This document shows, one piece after another, positions 6,436-22,114 of a DNA stretch of 41,182 bases. The translations under genes and the position numbers were made by a program. The notes below the pieces were generated by a model. The model was given only the letters and a program-made list of their open reading frames with translations. It was not told the DNA's origin and did no database searches. How positions within the stretch are numbered: the first letter of the stretch is position 1; each line of letters opens with the position of its first letter. Source of the stretch: Acidimicrobiales bacterium (GTDB lineage: Bacteria > Actinomycetota > Acidimicrobiia > Acidimicrobiales > RAAP-2); assembly GCA_030044045.1 (NCBI GenBank), contig JASHWO010000143.1, positions 1 to 41,182 of the forward strand, in the 5' to 3' direction.

Positions 6436-7260
6436 GTGACGACGGTGGAGAACGCGACGGTCACCCCGGTGGCGATCGGGGGGACCCGCGGGGGGCCCGA
6501 CGTCCCGACCCTGCGTCGGGACCGCTGGTGGTTGCAGCCCCTGGTGAGCGCCTCCGTCCTCATCGCCTTCGTGGCGTACTCCACCTGGGCCGCCTTCGTG
6601 AACAAGGACTACTACGTGGGCGCCGCCTCCCACCGGGACCTGCTCTCCCCCTTCTACTCCCCTTGCCTGGCGGCGAGCTGCGTGCCCGGTAGCCACCCGG
6701 GCTTCTTCCTCTCCTGGTGGGAGATCTCCCCGGCCATCCTCATTCTGGTGGTCCCGCTGGGCTTCCGCCTCACCTGCTACTACTACCGTCGGGCCTACTA
6801 CCGCTCGATCTGGCTGTCGCCGCCGAACTGCGCCGTGGCCGACGCCCACGGCTCCTACTCCGGCGAGAGCCGCTTCCCGCTCCTCCTGCAGAACGTCCAC
6901 CGCTGGTTCTTCTACCTGGGCCTCTGCCTGAACGTGATCCTCACCATCGACGCCGTGGTGGCCTTCCGCCAGCCCGGGTACGGCATCGGGATCAGCGTGG
7001 GTACGGTGGTGCTCTGCGTGAACGCCGCCCTGCTGTGGTGCTACAGCCTGTCGTGCCACTCCTGCCGCCACCTCTGCGGTGGCCAGGTGAAGAGCTTCTC
7101 CAAGCACCCCATCCGCCACAAGCTGTGGAAGCTGGTCACCCCGCTGAACGCCAACCACATGAAGTTCGCCTGGGCCAGCCTGGTTTTCGTGGCCCTCACC
7201 GACTTCTACGTGCGGCTGGTGGCCTCGGGGACGATCCACGACCCGGGCTTCCACTTCTAG
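6436..7260 (+). CDS. sdhC: Succinate dehydrogenase membrane anchor, mycobacterial Sdh1 type
   Basis: 274-aa membrane protein directly upstream of sdhA and sdhB. Five hydrophobic segments are visible: about 32-55, 94-120, 155-180, 183-206 and 238-262. The size, order and segment number match the single anchor subunit of the M. tuberculosis Rv0249c/Rv0248c/Rv0247c complex, not classical SdhC plus SdhD. A cluster C207-H208-x-C210-x-H212-x-C214 follows the fourth segment and could bind a metal or iron-sulfur centre. The GTG at 6436 is chosen for its excellent GGAAGGAGG site five bases upstream. The role is to anchor the complex and pass electrons to the quinone pool. The assignment rests on context plus sequence features. 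Confidence 0.87.
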   Translation: MTTVENATVTPVAIGGTRGGPDVPTLRRDRWWLQPLVSASVLIAFVAYSTWAAFVNKDYYVGAASHRDLLSPFYSPCLAASCVPGSHPGFFLSWWEISPAILILVVPLGFRLTCYYYRRAYYRSIWLSPPNCAVADAHGSYSGESRFPLLLQNVHRWFFYLGLCLNVILTIDAVVAFRQPGYGIGISVGTVVLCVNAALLWCYSLSCHSCRHLCGGQVKSFSKHPIRHKLWKLVTPLNANHMKFAWASLVFVALTDFYVRLVASGTIHDPGFHF

Positions 7261-7367
7261 GACCGGGACGGGCGGCGAGGCAGCGAGGCAAGCGAGCGGG
7301 GCGGCAGACCGGCCCGGCAGCACGGTCGAGAGAGCACACCAGAGGAACCGGAGAACCGGAGAGCGAG

Positions 7368-9182
7368 ATGGCCGAGTACGAGTCCCACCGGTACGACGTG
7401 ATCGTGATCGGCGCCGGCGGCGCCGGGTTGCGGGCCGCCATCGAGGCGCAGGAGCGGGGGCTGCGCACGGCGCTGGTGTGCAAGTCCCTGTTGGGCAAGG
7501 CCCACACGGTGATGGCCGAGGGGGGCGTGGCGGCAGCCATGGGCCACGTGTGGGCCGAGGACAACTGGCAGGTCCACTTCCGCGACACCATGCGCGGCGG
7601 CAAGTACCTGAACAACTGGCGCATGGCCCAGATCCATGCCCAGGAGGCGCCCGACCGGGTGTTCGAGCTGGAGGCGTGGGGGGCACTCTTCGACCGGACG
7701 AAGGATGGCCGGATCACCCAGCGGGACTTCGGCGGCCACCGCTACGCCCGCCTGGCCCACGTGGGCGACCGCACCGGGCTGGAGATCATCCGCACCCTCC
7801 AGCAGAAGGCCGTCAGCATGGGCATCGACGTCTTCATGGAGTGCAAGGTGCTGCGGCTGCTCTCCGACGGCGAGGGGCGGGTGTCCGGCGCCGTCGGCTA
7901 CTGGCGGCCCACCGGCCAGTTCGTGACCTTCGCCGCCAAGGCGGTGGTCCTGGCCACCGGCTCCATCGGCAAGTGCTACCAGTTCACGTCCAACAGTTGG
8001 GAGTCGACCGGCGACGGGCACGCCATGGCCCTGTGGGCCGGGGCCGACGTGATCGAGATGGAGTGCGTGCAGTTCCACCCCACCGGGATGGTGTGGCCGC
8101 TGTCGGTGCGCGGCCTCCTGGTCACCGAGGGGGTGCGGGGCGACGGCGGGGTCTTGCGCAACAGCGAGGGCAAGCGCTTCATGTTCGACTACGTGGCCCC
8201 CATGTTCCGGGCGGAGACGGCCGAGACCGAGGAGGAGGCCGACCGCTGGTACGACGACCACATCAACAACCGGCGCACCCCCGACCTCCTGCCCCGTGAC
8301 GAGGTGGCCCGGGCCATCAACAGCGAGGTGAAGGCGGGCCGGGGCACCCCCCATGGCGGGGTGTACCTGGACATCGCCAGCCGCCGCACCCCCGAGTACA
8401 TCCGCCGTCGCCTCCCCTCCATGTACCACCAGTTCATGGAGCTGGCCGGGGTGGACATCACCACCACCCCCATGGAGATCGGGCCCACCTGCCACTACAT
8501 GATGGGCGGGGTGCGGGTCGAGGCCGACACCGCGGCGGCCACCGTGCCCGGGCTCTTCGCCGCCGGCGAGGTGGCCGGCGGGATGCACGGGGCCAACCGG
8601 CTGGGCGGCAACTCCCTCTCCGACCTGCTGGTTTTCGGCCGGCGGGCCGGGATCGGCGCCTCGGAGTACGCCGAGGGGCGCACCGGTGAGCCGATCGTCG
8701 ACCCGGCCGAGGTCGACGCCGCGGTGGCCGACGCCGTGGGCCCGCTGGAGCGGGACGGCGGCGAGAACCCCTACGACGTCCACCACGACCTGCAGGCCAC
8801 CATGCAGTCGCTGGTGGGCATCATCCGCACCGGGTCCGAGCTGGGGGAGGCCCTGGACAAGCTGGGCGAGCTGCGGGAGCGCACGGCCAAGGTGTCGGTG
8901 GGCGGCGGCCGCAGCTACAACCCGGGCTGGAACCTGGCCACCGACCTGCCCTCGATGATCACCGTGTCCACGGCCATCGCCCAGGGCGCCCTCCACCGCC
9001 GGGAGAGCCGGGGCGGGCACACCCGAGAGGACTTCCCGGCCGCCGACCCGGAGATGGGCAAGGTCAACCTCGTCCAGCGCCAGACCGGCCCGCGGGGCTA
9101 CCAGGCCCCGATCACCATCACCCCTGAGCCGCTGGCCGAGATGCCGGCCGAGCTCCAGCAGCTCCTGGAGGAGGCACACTGA
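7368..9182 (+). CDS. sdhA: Succinate dehydrogenase flavoprotein subunit
   Basis: 604-aa flavoprotein that oxidises succinate to fumarate (TCA cycle, respiratory complex II). It has an N-terminal FAD-binding motif GAGGAGLRAA and HTVMAEGG with H46 as the expected covalent FAD attachment site. The substrate-side motif QFHPTG and the catalytic-domain pattern GPTCHYMMGGV then GANRLGGNSLSD are intact. Length and motifs agree with the Sdh1-type subunit (Rv0248c-like). The ATG at 7368 follows GGAGAG. It overlaps sdhB by one base (TGATG), so the two are translationally coupled. The 107-base gap after sdhC holds no gene. Confidence 0.97.
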   Translation: MAEYESHRYDVIVIGAGGAGLRAAIEAQERGLRTALVCKSLLGKAHTVMAEGGVAAAMGHVWAEDNWQVHFRDTMRGGKYLNNWRMAQIHAQEAPDRVFELEAWGALFDRTKDGRITQRDFGGHRYARLAHVGDRTGLEIIRTLQQKAVSMGIDVFMECKVLRLLSDGEGRVSGAVGYWRPTGQFVTFAAKAVVLATGSIGKCYQFTSNSWESTGDGHAMALWAGADVIEMECVQFHPTGMVWPLSVRGLLVTEGVRGDGGVLRNSEGKRFMFDYVAPMFRAETAETEEEADRWYDDHINNRRTPDLLPRDEVARAINSEVKAGRGTPHGGVYLDIASRRTPEYIRRRLPSMYHQFMELAGVDITTTPMEIGPTCHYMMGGVRVEADTAAATVPGLFAAGEVAGGMHGANRLGGNSLSDLLVFGRRAGIGASEYAEGRTGEPIVDPAEVDAAVADAVGPLERDGGENPYDVHHDLQATMQSLVGIIRTGSELGEALDKLGELRERTAKVSVGGGRSYNPGWNLATDLPSMITVSTAIAQGALHRRESRGGHTREDFPAADPEMGKVNLVQRQTGPRGYQAPITITPEPLAEMPAELQQLLEEAH

Positions 9183-10165
9183 TGAGCGACCTCAGCGGAC
9201 CCCAGGCAGCCGACCCGTCGGCCGGATCCGAGCCCCCCGTGGCCGTCGACGAGGTGCCGGCTGTCGCCGCTGCGGAGCCGGCCGTCCCGGGGCCCGGTGC
9301 CGTACCGCCAGCCGCGACGCCCGCCTCCGGTGAGGCGGCCAACGGCGGGGCGGCCACCGTGGCCATGCGGGTCTGGCGGGGTGACGCCGGCGGCGGGGAG
9401 TTCGCCGACTACTCGCTGCCGGCCCAGGACGGCGAGGTGGTGCTGGACGTCATCCACCGCATCCAGGCCACCGACGCTCCCGACCTGGCCTGCCGCTGGA
9501 ACTGCAAGGCCGGCAAGTGCGGGTCCTGCTCGGCCGAGATCAACGGCAAGCCCCGGCTCATGTGCATGACCCGGATGGACTCGCTGCCCGAGGGGCCGGT
9601 CACCGTGGCCCCCATGCGCACCTTCCCCATCGTGCGGGACCTGGTCACCGACGTGAGCTTCAACTACGAGGTGGCCAAGACGGTGCCGGCCTTCCAGCCG
9701 GCCCCGCCGCCGCCCGAGGGCTACCGCATGCAGCAGGTGGACGTGGAGCGGGGGCAGGAGTTCCGCAAGTGCATCGAGTGCTTCATGTGCCAGGACGTCT
9801 GCCACGTGATCCGCGACCACGAGGAGAACAAGCCCCGCTACGCCGGGCCCCGGTTCTTCATCCGCTTCGCCGAGCTGGAGATGCACCCGCTCGACACCAA
9901 CGACCGGCGGGAGCTGGTCCGCCAACAGGGCGGGCTCGGGCTGTGCAACATCACCAAGTGCTGCACCGAGGTGTGCCCGGAGCACATCAAGATCACCGAC
10001 AACGCCATCATCCCGCTGAAGGAGCGGGTGGTGGACGCCTCCTACGACCCGGTGGGCTGGCTGGGGCGGAAGATCCTGCGCCGCGCCAAGCGCTCGGCCG
10101 AGGAGGCCGGGGCCGGGGCCGGGGCCGGGCACCAGGCGCCGGCCGCAGGCCGCAGGCCTGGCTGA
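9182..10165 (+). CDS. sdhB: Succinate dehydrogenase iron-sulfur subunit
   Basis: 327-aa electron-transfer subunit of complex II. [2Fe-2S] ligands are C108-x4-C113-x2-C116-x11-C128. The C-terminal half has CIECFMCQDVCHV for the [4Fe-4S] cluster and CCTEVCPEHI for the [3Fe-4S]/[4Fe-4S] region. Residues 1-58 are an Ala/Pro/Glu-rich, probably disordered extension, and the last 20 residues are also Ala/Gly-rich; both are longer than in most SdhB proteins. The start ATG overlaps the sdhA stop. The extended N terminus could be an over-long start choice, but the overlap with sdhA supports it. Confidence 0.95.
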   Translation: MSDLSGPQAADPSAGSEPPVAVDEVPAVAAAEPAVPGPGAVPPAATPASGEAANGGAATVAMRVWRGDAGGGEFADYSLPAQDGEVVLDVIHRIQATDAPDLACRWNCKAGKCGSCSAEINGKPRLMCMTRMDSLPEGPVTVAPMRTFPIVRDLVTDVSFNYEVAKTVPAFQPAPPPPEGYRMQQVDVERGQEFRKCIECFMCQDVCHVIRDHEENKPRYAGPRFFIRFAELEMHPLDTNDRRELVRQQGGLGLCNITKCCTEVCPEHIKITDNAIIPLKERVVDASYDPVGWLGRKILRRAKRSAEEAGAGAGAGHQAPAAGRRPG

Positions 10166-10178
10166 CCGGCGCTCGCCG

Positions 10179-10658
10179 TTGCCGCGCTTCTACTCCCCCG
10201 AGTGGGTGGCCGCCTTCAACGAGGCGGTGGCCGACCTCGACCCGGCGGGCGTGGACCTGGGCGGCTCCCGGGCCGCCGGTGACGGCCGGCTGCGGGTGGC
10301 CCAGCTCGTACAGGGTGCACCCGGCGGGGACCTGCGGGTGCTCCTGGCGCTGGTCGACGGCCGGCTGCGATTGGCAGTGCGGCCGGTCGACGCCGTGGGT
10401 GCGGCCGGTGAGCCTGGCGGCGGACCGGACAGACCGGGCGAGCCCGGCGCAGCGGACGACGAGGCCCCCGACGTGACCGTGTCCCTCTCCTACGACGACG
10501 CCCGGGCCCTGTCCCGGGGCGAGCTGGACCCGGCGGAGGCCATCGGCCAGGGCCGGGTGCGGGTCCGGGGCGAGCTGGCGGTGCTGGTGGCCGGCCAGGC
10601 GCTGCTGTCGGCAGCGGCCGGCCGCCTGGCCGGCCTGCAGGCGGCCACCACGTACTGA
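10179..10658 (+). CDS. Small SCP2-like (sterol carrier) domain protein
   Basis: 159-aa protein from TTG 10179, with an in-frame GTG at 10206 as alternative. It opens with RFYSPEWVAAFNEAVADLD and later has VTVSLSYDDARALSRGELDPAEAIGQGRVRVRGEL, the pattern of SCP2-type lipid-binding folds (substrate-binding strand, then a helix with 'G..dp..a...G.i...Gd'). Such stand-alone proteins are common in actinobacteria and are of uncertain function, perhaps binding hydrophobic acyl ligands. The middle (about 70-95) is a Gly/Pro-rich insert. It follows sdhB by 13 bases and is probably co-transcribed. Family call is by motif resemblance. Confidence 0.65.
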   Translation: MPRFYSPEWVAAFNEAVADLDPAGVDLGGSRAAGDGRLRVAQLVQGAPGGDLRVLLALVDGRLRLAVRPVDAVGAAGEPGGGPDRPGEPGAADDEAPDVTVSLSYDDARALSRGELDPAEAIGQGRVRVRGELAVLVAGQALLSAAAGRLAGLQAATTY

Positions 10659-10712
10659 CCGCCGGGGCCGCTGGCGGGAGTGCATTGCTGAAGAACCAGT
10701 TCAAAGGCATTT

Positions 10713-10741
10713 TTGATTCTACGGAAAATTTTCCGTAGAGT
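10713..10741 (+). promoter_or_regulatory. Promoter of the ATPase pair (-35 TTGATT, 17-bp spacer, -10 TAGAGT)
   Basis: TTGATT at 10713-10718 and TAGAGT at 10736-10741 are separated by exactly 17 bases. Each matches the main sigma consensus at four of six positions. A long palindrome occupies almost the whole spacer. The expected transcription start is near 10748, about 25 bases before the first ATPase gene. The stretch is strikingly AT-rich compared with its surroundings. Confidence 0.6.
10718..10739. promoter_or_regulatory. Perfect 22-bp palindrome, probable operator 1
   Basis: A perfect inverted repeat, of form TCTACGG-AAAATTTT-CCGTAGA, fills the promoter spacer. Its core is TACGG-N8-CCGTA (10720-10737). 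A bound dimer here would block or retune RNA polymerase. The same core spacing recurs 24 bases downstream. Confidence 0.75.
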
Positions 10742-10743
10742 TA

Positions 10744-10761
10744 TACGGCAGAAACGCCGTA
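10744..10761. promoter_or_regulatory. Second TACGG-N8-CCGTA palindrome, probable operator 2
   Basis: TACGGC and GCCGTA arms flank AGAAAC. The arm sequence and eight-base core spacing equal those of operator 1, centred 24 bases upstream. It covers the predicted transcription start and the leader just before the CGGAGG ribosome site (10765-10770). Confidence 0.7.
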
Positions 10762-10773
10762 GATCGGAGGCCG

Positions 10774-11967
10774 ATGCCGGAACCGCTACCGCCCCGACGC
10801 CCGATCCCACCGTCTCCCGGTGGACAACTGGCCCCGGAGGACGTAATCGGGCGCGACCACCAGATCGCCCGCGCGTGGGAGCTGCTGGAGCGGGGATCCA
10901 TCCGGCTGAACGAACCCCGCCGGATCGGCAAGACGAGCCTGTTGGTCCGGCTGTGCGACGGGCCGCCGACGGGCTGGCAGTGCGTGCGGCAATCGTTCCA
11001 GGGGGTGACGACGCGCCAGGAGATGGCGGCCCGGGCGCTGGGCGGCATCTACCACCATCAGCGCCTTTCGAGCCGGGTCAAGGGGAAGGTAAAACAATTC
11101 CTCTCAACCGGGACGGTGAAGGCGACGGTCGATCAGGTCACCTTCGATCTGAGCGCGTCGTTCCGGGACGACCCGGTGGCGGCACTCGAGGCGGCGCTCC
11201 GGAGCGTCGACGCCGCCCTCGAGGACGAGCGGCTGGTGCTGGTGTGGGACGAGGTGCCCGACATGGTGCTCTCGGTCATCCAGCACGAGGGACCCGGGTG
11301 CGCCGCCGAACTGCTGGGAGTGCTCCGCCGGTTCCGGGACGAGCCGGTCCAGTCCTCGGTACGTTGGCTCATGACGGGTTCCGTGGGGTTCCACCACGCG
11401 CTGCGCCGGTGTACCGGCGGAGACTCCCTCGTCAACGACCTGGTGAACCTCTCGCTCGGACCGCTGGACGAGGACTGGTCCCGGTGGCTGTGCGGCGGGC
11501 TCCTGCTCGGCGTAGCGATCGGCCACGACGAAGACACGGTGTCGAAGATGGCCGAGGTAACCGACGGCATTCCCTTCCTGGCACACCTCGTCGCCAAGCA
11601 GGCGAGGGACACTCGGCGGTCACGGCTCGGCGCTGTCGACGTGCAGGAGGTGTTCGACGACGCCGTGGCCGATCTGGACCAGTCGCAGGCGACCACCCAC
11701 TTCCTTTCCCGACTCGGTCCGTACTACGAGATCCACTCGGCAACCGCCGAGTGGATCCTCGACCAGGTCGTGGCAGGCCCGGCGACCCGAATAGAGCTCC
11801 GAGATCGCGGCATCGAGAGAGGCCGTCCAGTCCCTACCGACCGGGAGCTCCGCGAGGCGCTCGACTGGCTCTGCCTGGATCACTACCTGATCAAGGACCG
11901 GCACTCGGGCCGCTATCAGTGGCGGTACCCGGCACTGGGCCGGGTATGGACGACCCGGAGGGCATGA
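10774..11967 (+). CDS. P-loop ATPase with archaeal-ATPase/STAND-like features, first of a pair
   Basis: 397-aa NTPase. Walker A is EPRRIGKTS (47-55), the RRxGKT variant of archaeal-type/STAND ATPases. Walker B is RLVLVWDE (153-160). WLMTGS (198-203) is a sensor-like strand. Residues about 310-397 look like a winged-helix domain (EWILDQVV...ELREALDWLCLDHYLIKD). There is no signal peptide or membrane segment. It is the first gene after the two-palindrome promoter and its stop lies three bases before the next ATPase. It is likely a switch or signalling ATPase, perhaps in stress or phage response; this role is inference. The ATG at 10774 follows CGGAGG at a short three-base spacing. Confidence 0.8.
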   Translation: MPEPLPPRRPIPPSPGGQLAPEDVIGRDHQIARAWELLERGSIRLNEPRRIGKTSLLVRLCDGPPTGWQCVRQSFQGVTTRQEMAARALGGIYHHQRLSSRVKGKVKQFLSTGTVKATVDQVTFDLSASFRDDPVAALEAALRSVDAALEDERLVLVWDEVPDMVLSVIQHEGPGCAAELLGVLRRFRDEPVQSSVRWLMTGSVGFHHALRRCTGGDSLVNDLVNLSLGPLDEDWSRWLCGGLLLGVAIGHDEDTVSKMAEVTDGIPFLAHLVAKQARDTRRSRLGAVDVQEVFDDAVADLDQSQATTHFLSRLGPYYEIHSATAEWILDQVVAGPATRIELRDRGIERGRPVPTDRELREALDWLCLDHYLIKDRHSGRYQWRYPALGRVWTTRRA

Positions 11968-11970
11968 CCG

Positions 11971-14340
11971 GTGGTCACCCTCACCCGCTTCACCCCCAGC
12001 CTGCTCGACCACGAGACCTTGGAGCGGCTGTTCGTCAACCGAGAGCCGCTGTTGGACCATGTGCTCGCCAGGATCGAGCGGGCGACTCGTAGTGACGAGC
12101 GCTCCCATACGCTATGGGTCGGGCCTCGCGGTGCCGGCAAGACCCACCTGCTGAGCCTGGTGTACCACCGGGCTCGCCAGCTCCCGGGACGGGGGACGAC
12201 CTTCCATCTCGCCTGGCTCCCCGAAGACCCCTGGGCCGTCGACACGCTTGACGACCTCTACCGAGAGGTGCTGGAGCACCTCGAGCCGGCTATCGCCGAG
12301 GCGGACCGGTCCGAACGACCCGAGGACGATCTGGTCCGGGCAGCTCGCCAGCGGGGGCCGATCGTGGTGCTGGTGGAGAACCTCGACCAGGTGTTCGACG
12401 CCATCGGCGACGACGGCCAGCGGCGCTTCCGGGCACTGCTGGAGACCGACCGGCCCCTGCTCCTGGTGGCCACTGCCACCAGGCTCACCGAGCACCTGGT
12501 GAGCCAGGCCGAGCCGTTCTACGGGTTCTTCGACACCACCACCCTCGAACCGTTCGACGTCGACGAGGCGGCCGCCATGTTGAAGGCCATCGCCCGGCTC
12601 GACGACGACCAGGCGCTGGTGTACCGGCTCGACCAACGCAGCACCCGAGCCCGGCTGGCGGCGATCGAGCACCTCGCCGGCGGCCAGCCCCGGGTATGGG
12701 CGCTCCTCGGCAGCGGGCTGTCGATCGAGACGCTGGGGGAACTCGTCACCGTCCTGCTGGAGCGGTTTGACGACTTGACGCCCTACTACCAGGAGCAGCT
12801 TGGCCGGCTCTCCCCTCACGAGCGCAAAGTCGTACGGACCCTGGCCGCCGAGGACCGGGCGATGACCGTTCGAGACCTCGCCACCACGACCGGGATCAAC
12901 CAGCAAAGCCTGGCCAGGACGATCACCAACCTTCGCCGGCACGGGTGGCTCCGCCCCCGCACCGGGCTGCTGGCGGACATGGTCGACCAACGACTGCGGT
13001 ACTACGAGCTCGCCGAGCCGCTGGTGCGCCTGGCCTTCCAGTTGAAGAGCGCCCGGGGAGCACCGGTGAAGCTCATCCTCGACTTCCTGACGGCGTGGTT
13101 CGACCGGGAGGAGTTTCGCTGCTCGACGGACGAACCGTCGGTCGAGATCTACCTCCAGGCCGCCCAGAACGTCTCGTCGCACGATCCGTTGGTCATCCTC
13201 TGTCACGACCTCAGCGAGCCGGATGCCGGCGGGCGGCGGCTGGTGATCCACTCGACGGTGGAACAGTTTGCGCCGGCAGTGCTGGACGACAACCCCCCCA
13301 TGGTCCGGATGCTTGTTGGACTCGACGATGCCCTGAAGGCGTTCGGCGAGGGCAATGCAGTGCCACTCCTCGAGCAGCCGGCGGGGCTCTCGAGGCTGAT
13401 AGAGCACCGGCTGGCCTCGACCAGCCCTACCCGGCTGCGGCTCGAGCTGTCCGACCTCGCCCTCCGCCGTGTCGTCGAAGACCCGCGAGCGTGGGTGGCT
13501 CGCGCTGAGGACGCTTTGCGCGGGGCTTCCAGCGATGACGTGCCGACGGCGCTGGTGCTCCTGGTGCGGTGGCAGCTCCGTGCCGGCCAGCGAGACGCCG
13601 CGGAGCTGCTTGTTCACCGCACCATCGAGGCGGTGAGGGAATCGTCAACGCCTGGCGCGACCGGCGCTGTCATCGCCGGCGCCAAGACACTGATCCGCTC
13701 TGGAGAACTCGAGGTCGCGCACGATCTCCTGGTCGGCGTGGAGCCCGTCGTCCCAATCGAACTGCAGCTCCGCCTTGGCTTCGCCTTCCAAGGGGTGAGC
13801 TTTCGCGCCGGCCGACCGGCCGAGGGGGTGGCACCGTGGGAGAAGGTCGTGCAGCGGATGGCCACATCGCTCGGCCCCGACCACCCCGACACCCTTGCCT
13901 CGAAGAACAACCTGGCCACCGCCTACGAAACAGTCGGTGACCTCGACCGAGCGATTCCGCTTCACGAGGCGGCGTTGGCCGGCTTCGAACGGGTCCTCGG
14001 CTCCGACCACCCGGTCACGCTTCTCTCGAAGAGCAACCTGGCCTACGCCCTCGGATCGGCCGGTGACTTCGACCGGGCGACCCCGCTTCATGAGGCGACG
14101 CTGGCCAGCTACAAGCGGGTCTTCGGCCCCAGTCACCTCCAGACCCTCATAGCGGAGAACAACCTGGCCTACGCCTATCGCTCGGCGGGTGACCTCGACC
14201 GGGCGATCCCGCTCTTCGAGGTGATATTGGCCAATCGCGAGCGGACCCTCGGACCCGACCACCCCCTCACGGTGAGCATTACTCGGGCACTCAGCGCCTG
14301 CCGGGAGATGCGGGAGGAGACCACTCAACGGACGAGGTGA
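11971..14340 (+). CDS. AAA/STAND ATPase with winged-helix and C-terminal TPR repeats, second of the pair
   Basis: 789-aa protein from GTG 11971, three bases after the preceding stop. Walker A is GPRGAGKTHL (51-60). The Walker B strand is IVVLVENLDQ (131-140), followed by the sensor-like LLLVATATR. This order resembles Orc1/Cdc6- and STAND-type ATPases. A winged-helix region (about 285-350; MTVRDLATTTGINQQSLARTI) and a helical middle follow. The C terminus (about 630-770) has at least three 42-residue kinesin-light-chain TPRs (LGPDHPDTL...NNLATAYETVGDLDRAIPL). TPR-ended STAND proteins usually sense a partner and oligomerise. Partner and output are unknown, and no effector domain (nuclease, TIR, protease) was recognised in either ATPase. 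Confidence 0.82.
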   Translation: MVTLTRFTPSLLDHETLERLFVNREPLLDHVLARIERATRSDERSHTLWVGPRGAGKTHLLSLVYHRARQLPGRGTTFHLAWLPEDPWAVDTLDDLYREVLEHLEPAIAEADRSERPEDDLVRAARQRGPIVVLVENLDQVFDAIGDDGQRRFRALLETDRPLLLVATATRLTEHLVSQAEPFYGFFDTTTLEPFDVDEAAAMLKAIARLDDDQALVYRLDQRSTRARLAAIEHLAGGQPRVWALLGSGLSIETLGELVTVLLERFDDLTPYYQEQLGRLSPHERKVVRTLAAEDRAMTVRDLATTTGINQQSLARTITNLRRHGWLRPRTGLLADMVDQRLRYYELAEPLVRLAFQLKSARGAPVKLILDFLTAWFDREEFRCSTDEPSVEIYLQAAQNVSSHDPLVILCHDLSEPDAGGRRLVIHSTVEQFAPAVLDDNPPMVRMLVGLDDALKAFGEGNAVPLLEQPAGLSRLIEHRLASTSPTRLRLELSDLALRRVVEDPRAWVARAEDALRGASSDDVPTALVLLVRWQLRAGQRDAAELLVHRTIEAVRESSTPGATGAVIAGAKTLIRSGELEVAHDLLVGVEPVVPIELQLRLGFAFQGVSFRAGRPAEGVAPWEKVVQRMATSLGPDHPDTLASKNNLATAYETVGDLDRAIPLHEAALAGFERVLGSDHPVTLLSKSNLAYALGSAGDFDRATPLHEATLASYKRVFGPSHLQTLIAENNLAYAYRSAGDLDRAIPLFEVILANRERTLGPDHPLTVSITRALSACREMREETTQRTR

Positions 14341-14463: not shown

Positions 14464-16809
14464 ATGGCGCGGTGGCCCCAGAGGGGATGTCCGACCTCCG
14501 TGAGCAGCTCGCCGACAGCGAGGGCGGTGCCGTCGACCGGCCGGCCGCGGCGCCGTGCACACCGACCGTGGTCCTACCGCGCCCCCGCCCGCACCTGGTG
14601 GGCCCGCCGCCGGGGCGTGGCCCCACGCGAGCAGGGCGTGGGGCTCGTGGAGATCATCATCGCCTTCGCCATCCTCATGATCGTCCTCGTCCCGATCTCC
14701 TATCTGCTCACCAACTCGTTGACGTCTGCCGGCCAGGCACGCGCCAAGGTGGCCGCCCTCTCTGTAGCTGAGAAGTGGCTCGAGGCACTCGACAACAGCG
14801 GACCGACATACGTCGACACAATCCCCGTCGTCGGCACGGCCATTCACGAACCGAAGACACCGGCAGCATCCACAACTGCGACGACACCGACAACCAGCCA
14901 GCCCACCACGCACTACACAACAGATGCAGGGACCAAGTACTTCGCCACCGGCTACTTCTACTGGACCACACCGAACCGAAGCACACACGGTTCGCCAGAC
15001 GTCTGCACGGCGGACACCGTGCCCGACACCTTGGAGCTCACCGTCAGGGTGCGTTGGGGAGACAGCAGTGCCAACGTGATCAGCGACACCACGCTCACCG
15101 CCTTCCCGCCTGCCGGCCTGCCGAAGTCCGGCTTCATCGGCGTGCAGATCGAGAGCAGTCCGTACCATCCAACAGATCTGTCAGATCCGGTGAGCGATGA
15201 CGACACGCCGTGGGGTGGGGGTGGTGCGACACGGGTTCATGATGTCCCAGTCACCATCACTCCGATCACAGCGACAATCCCGTCGACGATCACGACCACC
15301 ACCATCTATCCGTCGACAAACGGCTGTGCCTTCATCGAACGCCCACCGGGGCAGTACGAGGTGAGTGTCGGGCCCGAGACGGGCCTCACGACGCCTTTCG
15401 TGCGGCAGGGCAGCACCACATATGCGCAACCGTACCCGTACACAGGGGCCGTGACGGTGTCGGTAGACGAGGTGAGCCCAATCCACTTCCTCTACGACGA
15501 GGGGGCCTACGTCAAGGTCGACTACCCGGACACCACCACTGCCGACGGGTTCGCCACCTGCTCGACCACCGCACAGCTCTGCGTGGCCACTGGCCAGTCA
15601 CCGTCAGGAACGTCTCCCAACGGTTCCACCGGCACCGTGGCCACGACCAGCGTGCTCGTAAACGGTACGTGGTCGCAGATCCACCCCCTGTCGACCTCAC
15701 TCGATATCTCTCGGATCAACTCCCTTTCCTGCACTGCCTCGCTCTGCGTGGCCGTGGGTAACGGTCCAAGTGGCGGAGCGGCGACCGTACATGCACCATC
15801 CGCAGCCTCTACAGCATGGTCGGCCAGCACCCTGCCGACCGGTCTCACGATCACTGAACTGCAACAGGTTCAGTGCATCAACTCGACGTCGACGTGCATC
15901 GCCATCGGGTTGTCCGCTACAGGACCGCCCGTGGTCCTCGTCGGGAAAGTCACAGGTGGGTCGATCACCTGGTCGCGGGCGACCGCTCCCACAGGGATCG
16001 CGAGCCTCTCCCAGCTCGTCTGCATGTCCTCAGGAACAAGCTGCTTGGGCATCGGGACGGACGCGGCTGGTGGCGTTTTCCTCGTCGGTTCCCGTTCAGG
16101 TACCGGAACCTGGACCTGGACGACATTTCAAGCGTCCGGCACCTCCACGGTCTCGCAGATCACCTGCCCCTCGGCGACGACGTGCCTCGCTATTGGCAGT
16201 TCCGGCACCGGTGGCCCGGTAATCCTTTCAGGCGCCTCAGCCACCCCAGGATCGTGGACGTGGACCGCCGACACGCTTCCCGGCGGCACGTCGGCCGTCA
16301 CCCAGATTGCATGCCCGTCGACAACGTCGTGCGTGGCGATCGGCAACACCGGGGGCAACGCCGCTGTGCTGTCGGGGTCGCTTGCCAACACAGGACAATG
16401 GACCTGGGCAGCGGCGGAGCCCACGAACGTCACGTCGCTCGCCGAGATCACCTGCCCGGCCGTCGCCGCCTGCCTGGCCATCGGCTCGGCTTCGACCGGG
16501 GCGGCGATCGTCTCGGGCAGTCCGTCTGGAAGTTGGGTCACGGACACACCCGCCGGTGCCAGTGCCCTCACCCAGATGGCCTGCCCGGGGACAGGGCGCT
16601 GCTACGCGGTAGGAACGGCGGCTGGAGCAGCCGTGATCTTGTCCGGCAGTGCACAGAGCGGGACGCAGACGTGGACGTCGGACTCGCTACCCGGCGGGGC
16701 GGATGACCCGACATTCTTCTCGAGCGTCGCCTGTTACAAGTCGACGGGCACGGGCACCCCCTGGTCTGCGGTGTACCGGGCGGATCCAAGGAGGGTGCCG
16801 TCCTCCTGA
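14464..16809 (+). CDS. Prepilin-like protein with Cys-paired repeat domain (upstream part of a frameshifted gene)
   Basis: The frame from ATG 14464 encodes 781 aa. A class III prepilin signal is clear: REQG|VGLVE then IIIAFAILMIVLVPISYLL, with Glu63 at mature position +5. Residues about 85-330 are Thr/Pro-rich and extracellular in character. From about 355 there are some eight repeats of the form 'CPSxxTCxAIGxxGxxxVLxGS...WTW', each with two cysteines, suggestive of a beta-propeller or similar surface fold. The true start is uncertain: GTG 14500 and GTG 14617 give shorter leaders, and no start has a good ribosome site. The frame ends at 16809, but the coding sense continues in another frame. 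Base composition is clearly lower in GC than neighbouring housekeeping genes. Confidence 0.72.
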   Translation: MARWPQRGCPTSVSSSPTARAVPSTGRPRRRAHRPWSYRAPARTWWARRRGVAPREQGVGLVEIIIAFAILMIVLVPISYLLTNSLTSAGQARAKVAALSVAEKWLEALDNSGPTYVDTIPVVGTAIHEPKTPAASTTATTPTTSQPTTHYTTDAGTKYFATGYFYWTTPNRSTHGSPDVCTADTVPDTLELTVRVRWGDSSANVISDTTLTAFPPAGLPKSGFIGVQIESSPYHPTDLSDPVSDDDTPWGGGGATRVHDVPVTITPITATIPSTITTTTIYPSTNGCAFIERPPGQYEVSVGPETGLTTPFVRQGSTTYAQPYPYTGAVTVSVDEVSPIHFLYDEGAYVKVDYPDTTTADGFATCSTTAQLCVATGQSPSGTSPNGSTGTVATTSVLVNGTWSQIHPLSTSLDISRINSLSCTASLCVAVGNGPSGGAATVHAPSAASTAWSASTLPTGLTITELQQVQCINSTSTCIAIGLSATGPPVVLVGKVTGGSITWSRATAPTGIASLSQLVCMSSGTSCLGIGTDAAGGVFLVGSRSGTGTWTWTTFQASGTSTVSQITCPSATTCLAIGSSGTGGPVILSGASATPGSWTWTADTLPGGTSAVTQIACPSTTSCVAIGNTGGNAAVLSGSLANTGQWTWAAAEPTNVTSLAEITCPAVAACLAIGSASTGAAIVSGSPSGSWVTDTPAGASALTQMACPGTGRCYAVGTAAGAAVILSGSAQSGTQTWTSDSLPGGADDPTFFSSVACYKSTGTGTPWSAVYRADPRRVPSS

Positions 16810-16880
16810 GCGATGCCGATGCCCAGTCGACCTCGTCGACCTGGGCGGCGGCTTCGACGGGCAGCCCAAGCGGGCTCGTC

Positions 16881-17426
16881 GTGGGTGGCCTGGCCGTCTC
16901 GGTCTCCAGTACGACATACACAAATGCTCGCTTCACCGCGTGCACGTCGTCATCGGCCACGGTCGACAGTTGCAACGACGTGGGGCCCCTCTTCCCATAT
17001 ACGGATGGCTATTCGGTCGGAGCCGGTACCTGCACACCTGAGCTCGACCGCGACTCGGTACACGCCAAGTCCGCACCAGGAACGACACTTTCGAAAGCGA
17101 CATCGCTCACGCTGCCGATCGGCCTTCTCAACATCAAGGTCGTCGGTGCCGACGGCCAGCCCATCTCCGGCAGGACCGTCTCCGCCACCGTCACAGACGC
17201 CCACAACGCACCCTGTGCCGGGACGTTCACACTGGCAACTACCGATGGCTCGGGGACGTCGAGCGCCGCCCTTCCCTATGAGACGTACAAGATCACCGCC
17301 GGAGCAGCGACCGCGGTACTCGATGTGGGACCAACGTCCGTCTCGGTCATGACAGTGACCAATCCGACAGTCCCAGTTGTCAAGCAGACCTGCTACCTCC
17401 CCAATCCGGTGATTCTCGTCACATGA
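16881..17426 (+). CDS. Downstream part of the same prepilin-repeat gene, in a shifted frame
   Basis: 181 aa from the first usable in-frame codon (GTG 16881). Sensible sequence in this frame already begins near 16761: it reads CGVPGG then EGAVLLSDADAQ, matching the end of a Cys repeat of the upstream frame. This is therefore most likely the C-terminal part of the preceding gene, not a separate gene. Restoring one C in the run of five at 16757-16761 would join the two frames and give the last repeat its second cysteine. The rest reads as a secreted Ig/carboxypeptidase-regulatory-like beta domain (LLNIKVVGADGQPISGRTVSATVTD). Its stop overlaps the next gene's ATG (ATGA). Confidence 0.65.
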   Translation: MGGLAVSVSSTTYTNARFTACTSSSATVDSCNDVGPLFPYTDGYSVGAGTCTPELDRDSVHAKSAPGTTLSKATSLTLPIGLLNIKVVGADGQPISGRTVSATVTDAHNAPCAGTFTLATTDGSGTSSAALPYETYKITAGAATAVLDVGPTSVSVMTVTNPTVPVVKQTCYLPNPVILVT

Positions 17427-18277
17427 GCGCCCGCAGAGCGTTTATCCATCAAAAGGCCGACGAGGACGGGTACACCCTCGTCGAGCTGCTGATCTCCCTC
17501 ATACTGGCGTCCATCCTCATGGCAATGGGCCTCATCATTGCCACCACCTTCTTCAATGCCGAAAAGGTCATCGATACGTCGTACGCCAACCTGAACCAGC
17601 TCCTCCCGGTCAGCACGACCTTCCAGCAGTACATCCGATCGGCGGTCTCCCCCGCACCGACCAAGACAACAGCAGGGACCCCCGGCCAGCCGACGCCGCC
17701 GTTCGGTACCTACACGACTGCCGGGTCGCTCACACCGAGTGTCCGGTTCACCACATCGGCACTGACCTTCTTTACCAACGTGGACACACATACAGTGGCA
17801 ACGATCGCCAAGATCACGGCTACCTATACGAAGACAACCTCGACACCACCGACGACACCGACGACAAGGACAGTTCCTTCTGTTACACGAAAAGGAACGT
17901 TCGTGGTAACGAAAATTACCGCAACACCAACATCGTGCCCGGTGTCCGACGCGACATACACCAAGCACTGCAAGTTCGCGACAACGGGCAGGAAGTCGAC
18001 GCCGATCCGGGTCGACGACGTTCGCATGAGCAGCACGCCGGTCTTCACGTACTACTGCGCCCATTCGGGCGACGGTTGTACCGATGCGGGCACAGCAATG
18101 CCGGCGTCCGACTTCTCCACCTGTACCGCCACACAATGCGATGCGGCAGAGATCGAAAGCATCGGGGTCAAACTGATCATCAACACAAACTCGCGCGTAG
18201 GCCACACCGCCGACGAGGAGACCGTCACCTACGAGATCTCCTCGAGCTCACAGGCGTTCAACCCGGCGGTAGGGTGA
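17423..18277 (+). CDS. Type IV prepilin-like protein
   Basis: 284 aa with a textbook class III signal: short basic leader, DEDG|YTLVELLISLILASILMAMG, cleavage after Gly16 and Glu21 at mature +5. The prepilin peptidase that would cut and methylate it is not in this window. The mature part is Thr/Ser-rich with several cysteines in its C-terminal half (CPVSDATYTKHC, YYCAHSGDGC, CTATQC), consistent with disulfides outside the cell. It overlaps the preceding frame by four bases and is followed 12 bases later by the TIG protein, so all three are one operon. It is likely a minor pilin or pseudopilin; no closer family is recognised. Confidence 0.85.
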   Translation: MSARRAFIHQKADEDGYTLVELLISLILASILMAMGLIIATTFFNAEKVIDTSYANLNQLLPVSTTFQQYIRSAVSPAPTKTTAGTPGQPTPPFGTYTTAGSLTPSVRFTTSALTFFTNVDTHTVATIAKITATYTKTTSTPPTTPTTRTVPSVTRKGTFVVTKITATPTSCPVSDATYTKHCKFATTGRKSTPIRVDDVRMSSTPVFTYYCAHSGDGCTDAGTAMPASDFSTCTATQCDAAEIESIGVKLIINTNSRVGHTADEETVTYEISSSSQAFNPAVG

Positions 18278-18289
18278 GGAGATGACTCG

Positions 18290-21200
18290 ATGAACCGACT
18301 GCGCCATCGATATACGTCATCGATCGCTCAGATCTTCTCCCGGCAACTCCGGGACACTCGGGATGCGGGGCAAGCGATGATCGCCTTCGTCGTGGCCCTT
18401 ACGGTGATCATCGCCAGCTACGGGGCGATCCTTGCTGTCAACACTATCCAGCACGACCCGCTACTCCAAAAAAATGCTGTCGAACACTATACGTACCGTG
18501 CCATCGAGGCCGGGTCGAACAGCTTCCTCTCCATCGTCAATGGCAATCCCGACGAGATGAACTGCGACTCGAAATCGACCGACGAAGGTGAGTGCCCGGT
18601 CGGCAAGTACCAGACGTGGATCGCCGTCACAGGGACCACGGGCGGAAACGGTGTGGTCCCTGAATACTATTACTGGACAGATCCGAAGTTCTGCTACACA
18701 GAAAAGTGCACTACAACGGTGCACACGACAAAACCCCTCCTGTACGTGAAGGAGACAATCTGGGGTGCAGCCGGATTCTCAGGGCATGTCAGCTATGGGA
18801 AGATCACCGGCGACTTCGAAGCGGAGAATGGTTTCCTCACCCACGTATGGTGGTCCGACTTCGAAGTCTCCGATCCGATCCTCAAAACAACACGTTCAAC
18901 AGCAGCTTGTACCTGGGACTGGAACAACGATTTCAGAGGTCCAAACGTTCCATTGCCCACCGTCACGTCGCTCAGTCCGGCAACTGGGTCGATCGCGGGC
19001 GGTACATCGGTGACCATCAATGGCGTCAACTTCGTCGGGAGCGCGGCAGTCACCTTCGGCGGAGTCTCGGCGTCGACAGTCTATGTGGTCAGCTCGACCG
19101 AGATCACGGTCAAGTCGCCCCCGCACGCTGCCGGGATAGTGACAGTCGTCGTCACCACCGTCAACGGTGCCTCGGCAGGGGTCACCTACACCTACAAGAC
19201 ACTCCCACCGACTCTCACCAAGGTAACACCCGACGCCGGACCTACAGGAGGCGGAACTACGGTCACGTTGACGGGCTCTGGTTTCCTCAGTGGTTCGATC
19301 GTCGAGTTCGGCACCACGCCGGCCACCACAGTTACGGTGGTGAGCGGGACTGAGATAACTGCGAAAACCCCGGCACACGCCACCGGAACGGCGTCAGTCA
19401 CCGTCACGACGGCCAGCCGCACTTCAGCAGGCATCACCTACACCTACGACGCTGTGCCGACCCTAAAAACAATAACAAAATCCTACGGATCGACTGCCGG
19501 GGGCACCACCGTCACCCTGAACGGAACCGGTTTCATCAGCGATGGGACGACGGTCACATTCGGCGGCACCGAGATCCCGACCACGGAGGTGACCTACGTC
19601 AGCACGAGCAAGATCACCGTAACGGCGCCCAGTAGCGGCAGTGCCAAAGTGGTGTCCGTCACCGTGACGACGCCAGGTGGTACCTCCAACGTCAAGCAGT
19701 ACACGTACTACGCGAAGCCCACCCTCATCTCCGTGACGCCCGCCGCTACCAAGACGAAGACAGCGACAACGACGGTCACCCTCACCGGAACAGGGTTCGT
19801 CTCCGGCGGGACGACGGTCACATTCGGCGGCACCGAGATCCCGACCACGGAGGTGACCTACGTCAGCTCGACGGAGATCAAGGTGACGGCACCAAAGAAG
19901 ACAGCCGTCGAAACGACCACAGTGACGGTGACCACGCTCGGCGGAACCTCCGCCGCCGTGAAGTTCTACTATGGCGTCAAGCTTACGGGTGTGACAAATT
20001 CAGCTGGTCCGACGGCCGGTGGGAACACGGTCACCCTCACCGGAACAGGGTTCGTCTCCGGCGGGACGACGGTCACATTCGGCGGCACCGAGATCCCGAC
20101 CACGGAGGTGACCTACGTCAGCTCGACGGAGATCAAGGTGACGGCACCGGCACACGCTGCCGGCACCATCGACGTGACCGTGACCACCGCCGGTGGAACA
20201 TCGGGGGATAAGACGTACAGCTATGACCCATCGCCGACCCTGACGTCGCTCACTCCTGCGTCAGGGCAGCGAAGTAACAACACCGCGGTCACCTTGACCG
20301 GCACCGGCTTCGTCACCGGGGCGACTGTGAAGTTCGGCACCGAGACAGGCACCACGGTCACGGTCGTTAGCTCCACCGAGATCACCGTCGACACTCCCAA
20401 GCTGAAGGGAGAAAACAACGTGACGGTGAAAGTGACCGTCACTACTCCTGGGGGGACCTCCAACAGCCTGACATTCGAGTACACCGGGACGTACGAAGCT
20501 GCGATGATCATCCCTGCCGGTCGTTCGGCCGGATCAACACGGGTTGTCCAGGTCACACGACCGAGGCCGGTGATCATTGGATCAGTGCTCGCTGGGCCAA
20601 GCACCAAAGGAACGGCAGCCCAGCCGAAGCATGTGTCGCTCGACTCGATCCTCTCTGAGCTCGAGACCCCCACGGCTACGCTGACGTCTATCGTGAACAG
20701 CAAAGCGTGCACAGTGGTCATCTTCGCCAAGACAACACAGGTCTACGGACCGATCTTCTCGAACGACTCGCTATACGTTGAAACAGACTCGGTACCCGGA
20801 AAGCTGGGACCGATACAGACCGCTGATCCAGACTGCATAGCCGTCGCCGGTGGCGAATACACAAGAACACCAATGACAACAATCATCCCAGGGACCTGTA
20901 TGGCGAGCGCCACGAATGTCACAGGGACCCTTGACGAGGACAAGCAGGCGAAGGAAACACCCCCACACAGCGACAGTGAGCTCTCTACATATGCTGCGGA
21001 GGATACTGCGTCCGGGTACGGTTGCCTCTACTACGGTCCCACGACTATCACCTTCGACACCGACGACCAGATGACGGTCTGGAGCCCCGACACCCCGGGC
21101 ACCTCCCACTGCCCATCGACAGGCGACACTGGGAACGTGCCGAACGGTGGGCACGTGACATCGGGCAACGGGATCTCGACACTGGGAAATGGGGTGATCT

Positions 21201-22114
21201 ATGTCGCTACAGAGCCGAATACGGCCGACTGCAAGTCGAACGCCAACCCGTTCGAAGGTAAAACGACAGGCGGGACTGGGGCCAAGTCCCAATTGGACCA
21301 CTACGATCACACCAGCAGTACCACACCAAACTGTGAAGCCGACGTCTTTGTGAGCGATGCCAACAAGTCGACCACGGCAACATCGGCAAAGCCCACATCT
21401 CTTCCAGGTATTTCAGGTCAGCTCACTATCGGCTCTTCCGCCAACATTGTAATCACTGGTACAGTTGAATATACGCACTGTGGGAAGACATTCAATAGCT
21501 CGGCTGCACACACTGAGACGAGCGGCCTTTATAAGGAGGCTTGTCAATACAATCCTGCCGGAACCAAGACACCGACAAACCCCACCCGTACAGAGCCCAA
21601 CGACGTTCTCGGGCTCATCGCCAACGACTACGTCGAGGTCAGCCACCCCGTCACGACGACAACCGGCCTACATCCCACCAAGGTCACGACATGCGGTACC
21701 ACAACACGGGGCAAGCCCGAGGCGGCGGTCTGTGAGCCCGGCGCGGTGACGATCGACGCAGCCATCCTCGCGCTACAACACTCGTTCGCGGTCAACAATC
21801 CATCGACATCGCAGGACGGCAGCAAGTCCGGCTCTACCGGACAACTCACGATCTACGGCACGATCGACCAGAAGTGGCGCGGCGCTGTCGGCACGGTCTA
21901 CACGGGAGGGTTCACAGCGGGAAAAGCGGCGACGGGCTACCTCAAGTACTACGACTGGGACAGCCGCGTCACCGCGGTCCCACCACCGCACTACCTGAAC
22001 CCGTCCACGCCATCGTGGGCGCTTGGCTCCTCGGCGATCTCGTCCCAGGCCACACCCCCAATGAAACCGACACCGACGCACCCGACAAAGGAGATCCCGG
22101 ATCCGGCTCCGTGA
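18290..22114 (+). CDS. Large PilX-like surface protein with six TIG/IPT domains
   Basis: 1274 aa. Residues about 28-50 form one membrane helix after a basic leader ending DAG (QAMIAFVVALTVIIASYGAI). It resembles PilX/TadE-type pilin N termini but lacks Glu at +5. Six TIG/IPT immunoglobulin-like domains span about 222-735 (repeated P-T-L-x-x-V-x-P, GGTTVTLTGTGF, VTYVSSTEI, VTVTTxGGTS). Residues 735-1274 are cysteine-containing and end with KWRGAVG...GYLKYYDWDSRVTAVPPPHYL, a pattern seen at the end of large actinobacterial pilin-like secreted proteins. The ATG at 18290 follows GAGGAG by eight bases. It could be an adhesin-like pilus tip subunit; this is inferred. It is the last gene of the pilin-like operon. 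Confidence 0.82.
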   Translation: MNRLRHRYTSSIAQIFSRQLRDTRDAGQAMIAFVVALTVIIASYGAILAVNTIQHDPLLQKNAVEHYTYRAIEAGSNSFLSIVNGNPDEMNCDSKSTDEGECPVGKYQTWIAVTGTTGGNGVVPEYYYWTDPKFCYTEKCTTTVHTTKPLLYVKETIWGAAGFSGHVSYGKITGDFEAENGFLTHVWWSDFEVSDPILKTTRSTAACTWDWNNDFRGPNVPLPTVTSLSPATGSIAGGTSVTINGVNFVGSAAVTFGGVSASTVYVVSSTEITVKSPPHAAGIVTVVVTTVNGASAGVTYTYKTLPPTLTKVTPDAGPTGGGTTVTLTGSGFLSGSIVEFGTTPATTVTVVSGTEITAKTPAHATGTASVTVTTASRTSAGITYTYDAVPTLKTITKSYGSTAGGTTVTLNGTGFISDGTTVTFGGTEIPTTEVTYVSTSKITVTAPSSGSAKVVSVTVTTPGGTSNVKQYTYYAKPTLISVTPAATKTKTATTTVTLTGTGFVSGGTTVTFGGTEIPTTEVTYVSSTEIKVTAPKKTAVETTTVTVTTLGGTSAAVKFYYGVKLTGVTNSAGPTAGGNTVTLTGTGFVSGGTTVTFGGTEIPTTEVTYVSSTEIKVTAPAHAAGTIDVTVTTAGGTSGDKTYSYDPSPTLTSLTPASGQRSNNTAVTLTGTGFVTGATVKFGTETGTTVTVVSSTEITVDTPKLKGENNVTVKVTVTTPGGTSNSLTFEYTGTYEAAMIIPAGRSAGSTRVVQVTRPRPVIIGSVLAGPSTKGTAAQPKHVSLDSILSELETPTATLTSIVNSKACTVVIFAKTTQVYGPIFSNDSLYVETDSVPGKLGPIQTADPDCIAVAGGEYTRTPMTTIIPGTCMASATNVTGTLDEDKQAKETPPHSDSELSTYAAEDTASGYGCLYYGPTTITFDTDDQMTVWSPDTPGTSHCPSTGDTGNVPNGGHVTSGNGISTLGNGVIYVATEPNTADCKSNANPFEGKTTGGTGAKSQLDHYDHTSSTTPNCEADVFVSDANKSTTATSAKPTSLPGISGQLTIGSSANIVITGTVEYTHCGKTFNSSAAHTETSGLYKEACQYNPAGTKTPTNPTRTEPNDVLGLIANDYVEVSHPVTTTTGLHPTKVTTCGTTTRGKPEAAVCEPGAVTIDAAILALQHSFAVNNPSTSQDGSKSGSTGQLTIYGTIDQKWRGAVGTVYTGGFTAGKAATGYLKYYDWDSRVTAVPPPHYLNPSTPSWALGSSAISSQATPPMKPTPTHPTKEIPDPAP
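19772..20148 (+). repeat. Direct duplication inside the TIG-domain gene, 255-bp offset
   Basis: Bases 19772-19893 recur without change at 20027-20148 (122 bp, offset 255 bp = 85 codons), joining TIG domains 4 and 5. A shorter related stretch of about 59 bp (19544-19602) is shared with domain 3. This shows recent expansion of the TIG array by in-frame recombination and makes the copy number prone to change or misassembly. Confidence 0.85.

Follow-up and report, generated by a model that had tools for sequence, protein, structure and literature searches.

A conserved two-gene unit of STAND-type ATPases with tandem operator-like dyads in its promoter: a possible self-regulated switch

A 41,182-nucleotide stretch of DNA from an Acidimicrobiales bacterium of the lineage RAAP-2 (assembly GCA_030044045.1, contig JASHWO010000143.1; hereafter “the window”) contains two adjacent genes, A and B, which encode predicted ATPases of the STAND class (signal transduction ATPases with numerous domains) and are preceded by a putative promoter carrying two perfect inverted repeats (dyads). 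Comparison with related loci showed, at the level of sequence, that A and B form a conserved and sparsely distributed two-gene unit, that their predicted folds are those of STAND ATPases, and that the geometry of the dyads and their register with the promoter recur in most loci. No defence or family model that we searched names the whole pair. We consider the chances evenly balanced that the pair is a stand-alone, self-regulated two-protein switch with B as repressor and sensor, A as output partner, and an antiviral output. If B both senses and represses, NLR-like sensing and DNA binding would be joined in one bacterial protein, and how such switches stay off would become directly testable.

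Both genes lie on the plus strand with a gap of 3 bases between them, and the locus is organized as follows (positions in the window).

10713-10718, plus strand: putative -35 element TTGATT, read from the sequence; a similar layout is found in the relatives L001, L002 and L056 (L and G numbers denote our loci and genomes).
10720-10737, plus strand: operator-like site 1, TACGGAAAATTTTCCGTA, a perfect TACGG-N8-CCGTA dyad that fills the spacer between the -35 and -10 elements.
10736-10741, plus strand: putative -10 element TAGAGT, 17 bp from the -35 element; it begins with the TA that ends site 1.
10744-10761, plus strand: operator-like site 2, TACGGCAGAAACGCCGTA, a perfect TACGG-N8-CCGTA dyad over the expected transcription start, 24 bp past site 1.
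10766-10770, plus strand: likely ribosome-binding site GGAGG, read from the sequence.
10774-11967, plus strand: gene A, a 397-aa STAND-type ATPase with a C-terminal winged helix.
11971-14340, plus strand: gene B, a 789-aa STAND-type ATPase with a MarR-like winged helix (approximately residues 280-352) and kinesin-light-chain-type tetratricopeptide repeats (TPRs; approximately residues 592-788).

This layout agrees with a preliminary description of the locus, which had reported two ATPase genes three bases apart, a 17-bp spacer filled by a perfect palindrome, and a second TACGG-N8-CCGTA palindrome over the start of transcription. Both open reading frames (ORFs) and site 2 were located at the positions listed, and site 1 is embedded in a perfect 22-bp palindrome (10718-10739) of the TTGATT-17-TAGAGT promoter. 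No TACGG-N8-CCGTA match other than sites 1 and 2 exists in the window when up to one mismatch is tolerated. The evidence from the single window is modest, as two or more matches (with at most one mismatch) also occurred in 12 of 100 shuffles of the window. The A-B promoter, which has 8 of 12 consensus bases by count, was absent from a generic sigma-70 scan of the window with a threshold of 9. Site 1 lies upstream of the expected transcription start and is thus not an attenuator; a tRNA or Rfam element at the locus was considered and rejected, as none was found.

An initial scan of genome contigs with A alone was unproductive. A profile of A recovered two contigs, L001 from a member of the Propionibacteriaceae (32% identity) and L002 from a member of the Acidimicrobiia (37%), and B adjoins A in both. 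Among 395 genomes sampled from the class of L002, A was detected in four (E ≤1e-15) and B in three (E ≤1e-20); the corresponding numbers for 394 genomes from the class of L001 were four (E ≤1e-15) and five (E ≤1e-10). Across these 789 Actinomycetota genomes, A and B were thus present in eight genomes each and occurred together in seven, being adjacent in all seven, versus an expected co-occurrence of 0.08 genomes (8 × 8 / 789) if they were independent. The counts for A and B are lower bounds, because at most four first-look candidates were scored per genome, and weak matches to the A profile (21 of 25 genomes in the class of L002, E >1e-15) were left out of the count for A. In the sole A-only genome (G225) the contig ends approximately 50 bases past A (L057), which hides any B; the sole B-only genome was G552 (L054). 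A phylum-wide sample of 396 genomes, which partly overlapped the others, contained A in two (G002 and G837), and G837 harbors two different A-B pairs (L083 and L084). B followed A in 12 of 14 distinct A loci, the B of Segatella matching weakly and only across the winged helix. By eye, the longest contig of 12 of 38 A relatives was as long as that of one of 119 listed B relatives (120 of 640 matches were listed, the window’s own included), which suggests that these A and B relatives share a contig. The conserved two-gene unit anticipated in the preliminary description, which had made its proposal depend on co-occurrence elsewhere, is therefore found in 7 of 789 genomes. In L002, gene A (9980-11097) is split over two reading frames, reflecting either a sequencing error or decay.

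TACGG-N8-CCGTA dyads were also found 5' of A in relatives: three perfect ones in L001, one perfect and one 9/10 dyad in L002, and one perfect and one 8/10 dyad in L009/L056. Promoters read by eye had a dyad filling the spacer in L001 (TTGATT-17-TATAAT) and L056 (TTGACA-17-TATTAT). To score tandem dyads, pairs of 5-N8-5 dyads upstream of A were compared with all other 165-bp segments of the same locus for 15 A loci, of which 14 are distinct (the Moraxella plasmid loci L072 and L074 are near-identical). In 8 of the 14 distinct loci (9 of all 15), no other segment reached the score of the region upstream of A (window, 0/247; L001, 0/65; L058, which equals L002, 0/113; L056, 0/113; L057, 0/83; L055, 0/82; L085, 0/34; L072, 0/140; L074, 0/150), and this within-locus comparison led us to reject chance palindromes as an explanation. 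The operator-like nature of the sites, as originally proposed, is convincing because relatives carry dyads upstream of A; the palindromes are not absent upstream of all homologues, a further point on which the proposal had been made to hinge.

Dyads recur at intervals of 24 bp in the window, L002, L056, L057 (twice), L055 and L085, of 29 bp in L001 (twice), and of 27 bp in Moraxella (twice). Their half-sites read TACGG in the window, L001, L002 and L056, TACGT in L055 and L085, TACAG-like in L057, and AACTA in Moraxella. L084 has one perfect TACAT-N8-ATGTA dyad, and in L052 and L053 half-sites of the GTAC type were seen by eye at a distance of 16 bp. A single TACAG-N8-CTGTA dyad in the same -10 register was seen by eye in L047, which encodes B without A. 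In the window, L001, L002, L056, L057, L085, L084 and L047, a TAnnnT -10-like element begins with the TA that ends a dyad, and the register is off by two in L055 (all by eye). The half-site letters drift symmetrically between loci, while geometry and promoter register are mostly kept. The B-only locus L048 has a different dyad of the TTGCC type, without tandem order.

The assignment of A to the STAND-type switch ATPases, with a fold like that of archaeal STAND ATPases and NLR/CED-4 cores, is well supported by fold prediction and motif comparison. Its Walker A (EPRRxGK[ST]) and Walker B (DE[VIF]PDM) motifs are present in 25 of 25 aligned rows each. A GxP motif at the lid belongs to the definition of the STAND class. 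This motif occurs in most A proteins only (18 of 25 rows), and the winged helix following the ATPase domain and the fold of STAND members, which also define the class, were both found. The structure comparison by VIA-align 2 covers only the best candidates from Foldseek. The nearest named family, Pfam AAA_35, matched A with 12 bits (curated cut-off 27), and A had no PADLOC match and no NCBIfam match at E ≤10.

For B, a predicted architecture of an ATPase, a MarR-like winged helix and a variable TPR array is likewise well supported. The Walker A motif GxxGxGK[ST] is present in 22 of 22 rows and the lid motif G-Q-P is invariant in 22 rows. The window’s B scored 24.5 bits against MarR_2, which is below the cut-off of 27, and the relatives in L047 (27.9 bits) and L054 (31.4 bits) scored above it. 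One TPR signature occurs in 0 to 14 copies among 120 listed B proteins, with neighbouring repeats up to 98% identical; B has the C-terminal superstructure-forming repeats that also characterize the STAND class. The 1268-aa relative P0049 has 14 TPR signatures, and its neighbouring repeats are up to 98% identical. NF040586, a model for the TPR protein of the FxSxx-COOH system, matched the TPR part of B only (129.4 bits, cut-off 300), and PADLOC matches of B were weak (best Csa3, E 1.2e-4, 20.2 bits). Fold and motif comparisons therefore bear out the STAND/archaeal-type fold and the winged helices earlier proposed for both proteins, and the TPR region of the second protein was confirmed, for which a sensing role can be inferred.

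As noted in the preliminary description, no separate repressor gene is apparent nearby: besides A and B, Pfam searches revealed no helix-turn-helix (HTH) regulator among 14 other proteins of the window, several of which had no match at all. In the whole genomes of three relatives, perfect sites numbered one in G002 (at A), six in G001 (three at A), and six in G263 (one at A), and the reversed control pattern occurred 8, 2 and 3 times, respectively. All eight sites away from A lie inside stop-free frames of 272-800 codons, an argument weakened by the long frames that contain the sites at A in G002 and G263 too. The dyad looks dedicated to the A-B pair. One position of the presumed recognition helix of B is occupied by L in four of four TACGG loci and by V in two of two TACGT loci; the TACAT and TACAG loci have A there. 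The B of L001 (44% identity to the window’s B) combines L with TACGG, and the closer B of L085/G542 (51%) combines V with TACGT. We regard a helix position that tracks the half-site letters as a lead. B appears the better candidate for the binder, since L047 has an in-register dyad with B but no A and since the helix position tracks the half-site; self-repression by B is, in our judgement, probable.

The preliminary description had proposed a search for a defence-island setting, and such a setting was not supported around the window, where 10 other proteins gave no PADLOC match at 1e-8. Neither A nor B reached a defence-model cut-off in NCBIfam or had a strong PADLOC match. Distant plasmid relatives, which are approximately 23-31% identical to the window’s proteins, have other neighbours. 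In the Moraxella osloensis plasmid pNP7-2, genes with the annotations deazaguanine synthase, QatD and protein kinase precede the pair, and an N-6 DNA methylase lies five genes after B; the protein encoded downstream of the pair on pSKB0120-2 has matches to PD-Lambda-4_A (5.6e-127) and to the N-terminus of Avs4 (2.3e-67). B-like proteins of Sphingobium, one found via the Moraxella B (24.7% identity), are located beside Pycsar and AbiE genes. On the Mycobacterium avium plasmid pP4-4a (L047, 8947-11642), a B-like gene unaccompanied by A precedes and overlaps a gene for a Ser/Thr kinase with matches to the PD-T4-6 models, whose kinase matches are broad. For the B-like gene of an M. intracellulare plasmid, no defence system is annotated in the 19-kb segment analysed. 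We treat the defence-gene neighbourhood of these distant relatives as a lead toward defence, and an immune role of the pair is, overall, a possibility with the scales level. A phage origin was unsupported, as scans of viral contigs with A and B gave no relative, the first 480 residues of B had no match in phage records, and PHROGs returned none for A and two weak matches for B. In L072 (7816-19671; M. osloensis AP031474.1), the A-B pair precedes a gene for a 1248-aa protein with matches to PD-Lambda-4_A and the N-terminus of Avs4, after which comes a 1586-aa protein without a PADLOC match at 0.01.

Among known systems, the fold of A resembles the archaeal STAND ATPases PABY2304 (2qen) and SSO1545 (2fna) at 14-18% identity, but unlike these A comes with a partner, B, and with promoter dyads. 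The NLR/NB-ARC and CED-4 cores (9h2l, 9cc9, 3lqq) and archaeal ORC2 (1w5t) share 11-14% identity with A; in contrast to NLR and CED-4 proteins, the pair showed no effector domain, and the repeats are on B with A being a separate small ATPase. AVAST proteins (Avs1-4) are STAND ATPases with C-terminal repeats. Avs3 (8dgc) ranked 13th in the fold search with B, whereas neither A nor B had an Avs match in PADLOC or NCBIfam. The Moraxella A relative matches the DS-41 anti-phage protein (NF053860) over its first P-loop stretch (E 6.4e-4); membership was rejected, in G002 as well, as this match had 18.8 bits versus a cut-off of 370 and the window’s A had none. According to PMC13236601, the CARD-NLR immune system LypABC has an ATPase-TPR protein beside a second ATPase-domain protein, is tightly repressed, and is toxic when overproduced; CARD-like and peptidase domains are part of LypA, and repression is exerted by a distinct protein, CdxB. 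The combination of an ATPase-TPR protein and a second ATPase is thus common to both, whereas no CARD-like or peptidase domain and no separate repressor were found for A-B. We found no description of the A-B pair in the open-licence literature, as far as the accessible portions extend, including PMC13236601, PMC7159879 and PMC13092281.

In the self-regulated switch that we favour, a dimer of B would occupy the paired dyads via its MarR-like winged helix and, in the resting state, block RNA polymerase at its own promoter. The ligand sensed by the TPR array would most likely be a protein; nucleotide exchange would then free B from the DNA, A-B expression would rise, and the released B would engage the smaller STAND ATPase A to produce the output. 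We infer B as the binder, repression by binding, TPR sensing, A as output partner and an antiviral output. In its boldest form, a new type of bacterial immune switch, an NLR-like sensor would be its own repressor, with B parked on tandem operators within its promoter and leaving once an invader engages its TPR array, recognition thereby being coupled to a burst of A-B, operator and helix co-evolving, and the pair being a portable cassette outside defence islands; this form is conceivable, if rather doubtful. Several observations weigh against the favoured reading. In all 22 aligned rows, E-N replaces D-E in the Walker B motif of B, so that ATP hydrolysis by B may be poor, and searches with Pfam, PADLOC and NCBIfam revealed no effector domain in either protein. 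A carries a winged helix too and could be the binder instead. The match between helix and operator was noticed post hoc among 11 loci and is not one-to-one, with V also present at AACTA and A also at both GTAC loci. Standout tandem dyads were missing from 6 of 14 distinct A loci (L052, 2/79 other segments reaching the score; L053, 80/94; L083, 12/52; L084, 37/58; L075, 35/101; L050, 32/98) and from all five B-only loci, and in L075 no B-like ORF of ≥200 aa follows A. Finally, besides the lack of defence matches in the window, the flanking proteins examined, two per locus for L001, L002, L051, L052 and L056, were metabolic, chaperone, gyrase, protease and LacI-type proteins, with no defence gene among them.

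These neighbours would also suit a sensor without an immune function, which would follow a logic like that of MalT: its TPRs would recognize a metabolite or a protein of the host, and a cellular process would be under the control of the pair. STAND-TPR proteins can indeed be ordinary regulators, as are MalT and AfsR. However, the sparse presence (A in 8 of 789 genomes), the fast variation of the TPR arrays and the only perfect site of G002 being the pair’s own, which makes a regulon via that site unlikely in G002, speak against this explanation, which we consider fairly unlikely. The absence of tandem dyads from B-only loci would equally fit an unlinked or neighbouring transcription factor that binds the dyads with A-B merely as its target. 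Dyads of this size are known targets of several HTH families, a WYL gene precedes the pair in Segatella, and a LacI-type gene follows it in L001. Across the five loci, though, the ten flanking proteins examined include no recurrent HTH gene, and the half-site letters that partly track the recognition helix of B, the in-register dyad of the B-only L047, and the lack of another perfect site in G002 also argue against such a factor, which we deem unlikely. An addiction (toxin-antitoxin-like) module with self-repression would fit the tandem dyads, whose geometry is HipB-like (TATCC-N8-GGATA), ahead of two touching genes, but A and B are large ATPases in which no toxin domain was recognised, and we regard this reading as very improbable.

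Elsewhere in the window, two proteins encoded at 14464-22114 have pilin-like N-terminal methylation motifs (one just below the cut-off) and are followed by a 1274-aa TIG-repeat protein. A 1144-aa UvrD-like helicase (35738-39172) has its helicase domain from residue 401 onward, and its 400-aa front part has no Pfam match at 1e-5. In the succinate dehydrogenase-type flavoprotein ORF at 6717-9182, the FAD domain begins only at residue 227, and the true start may lie later.

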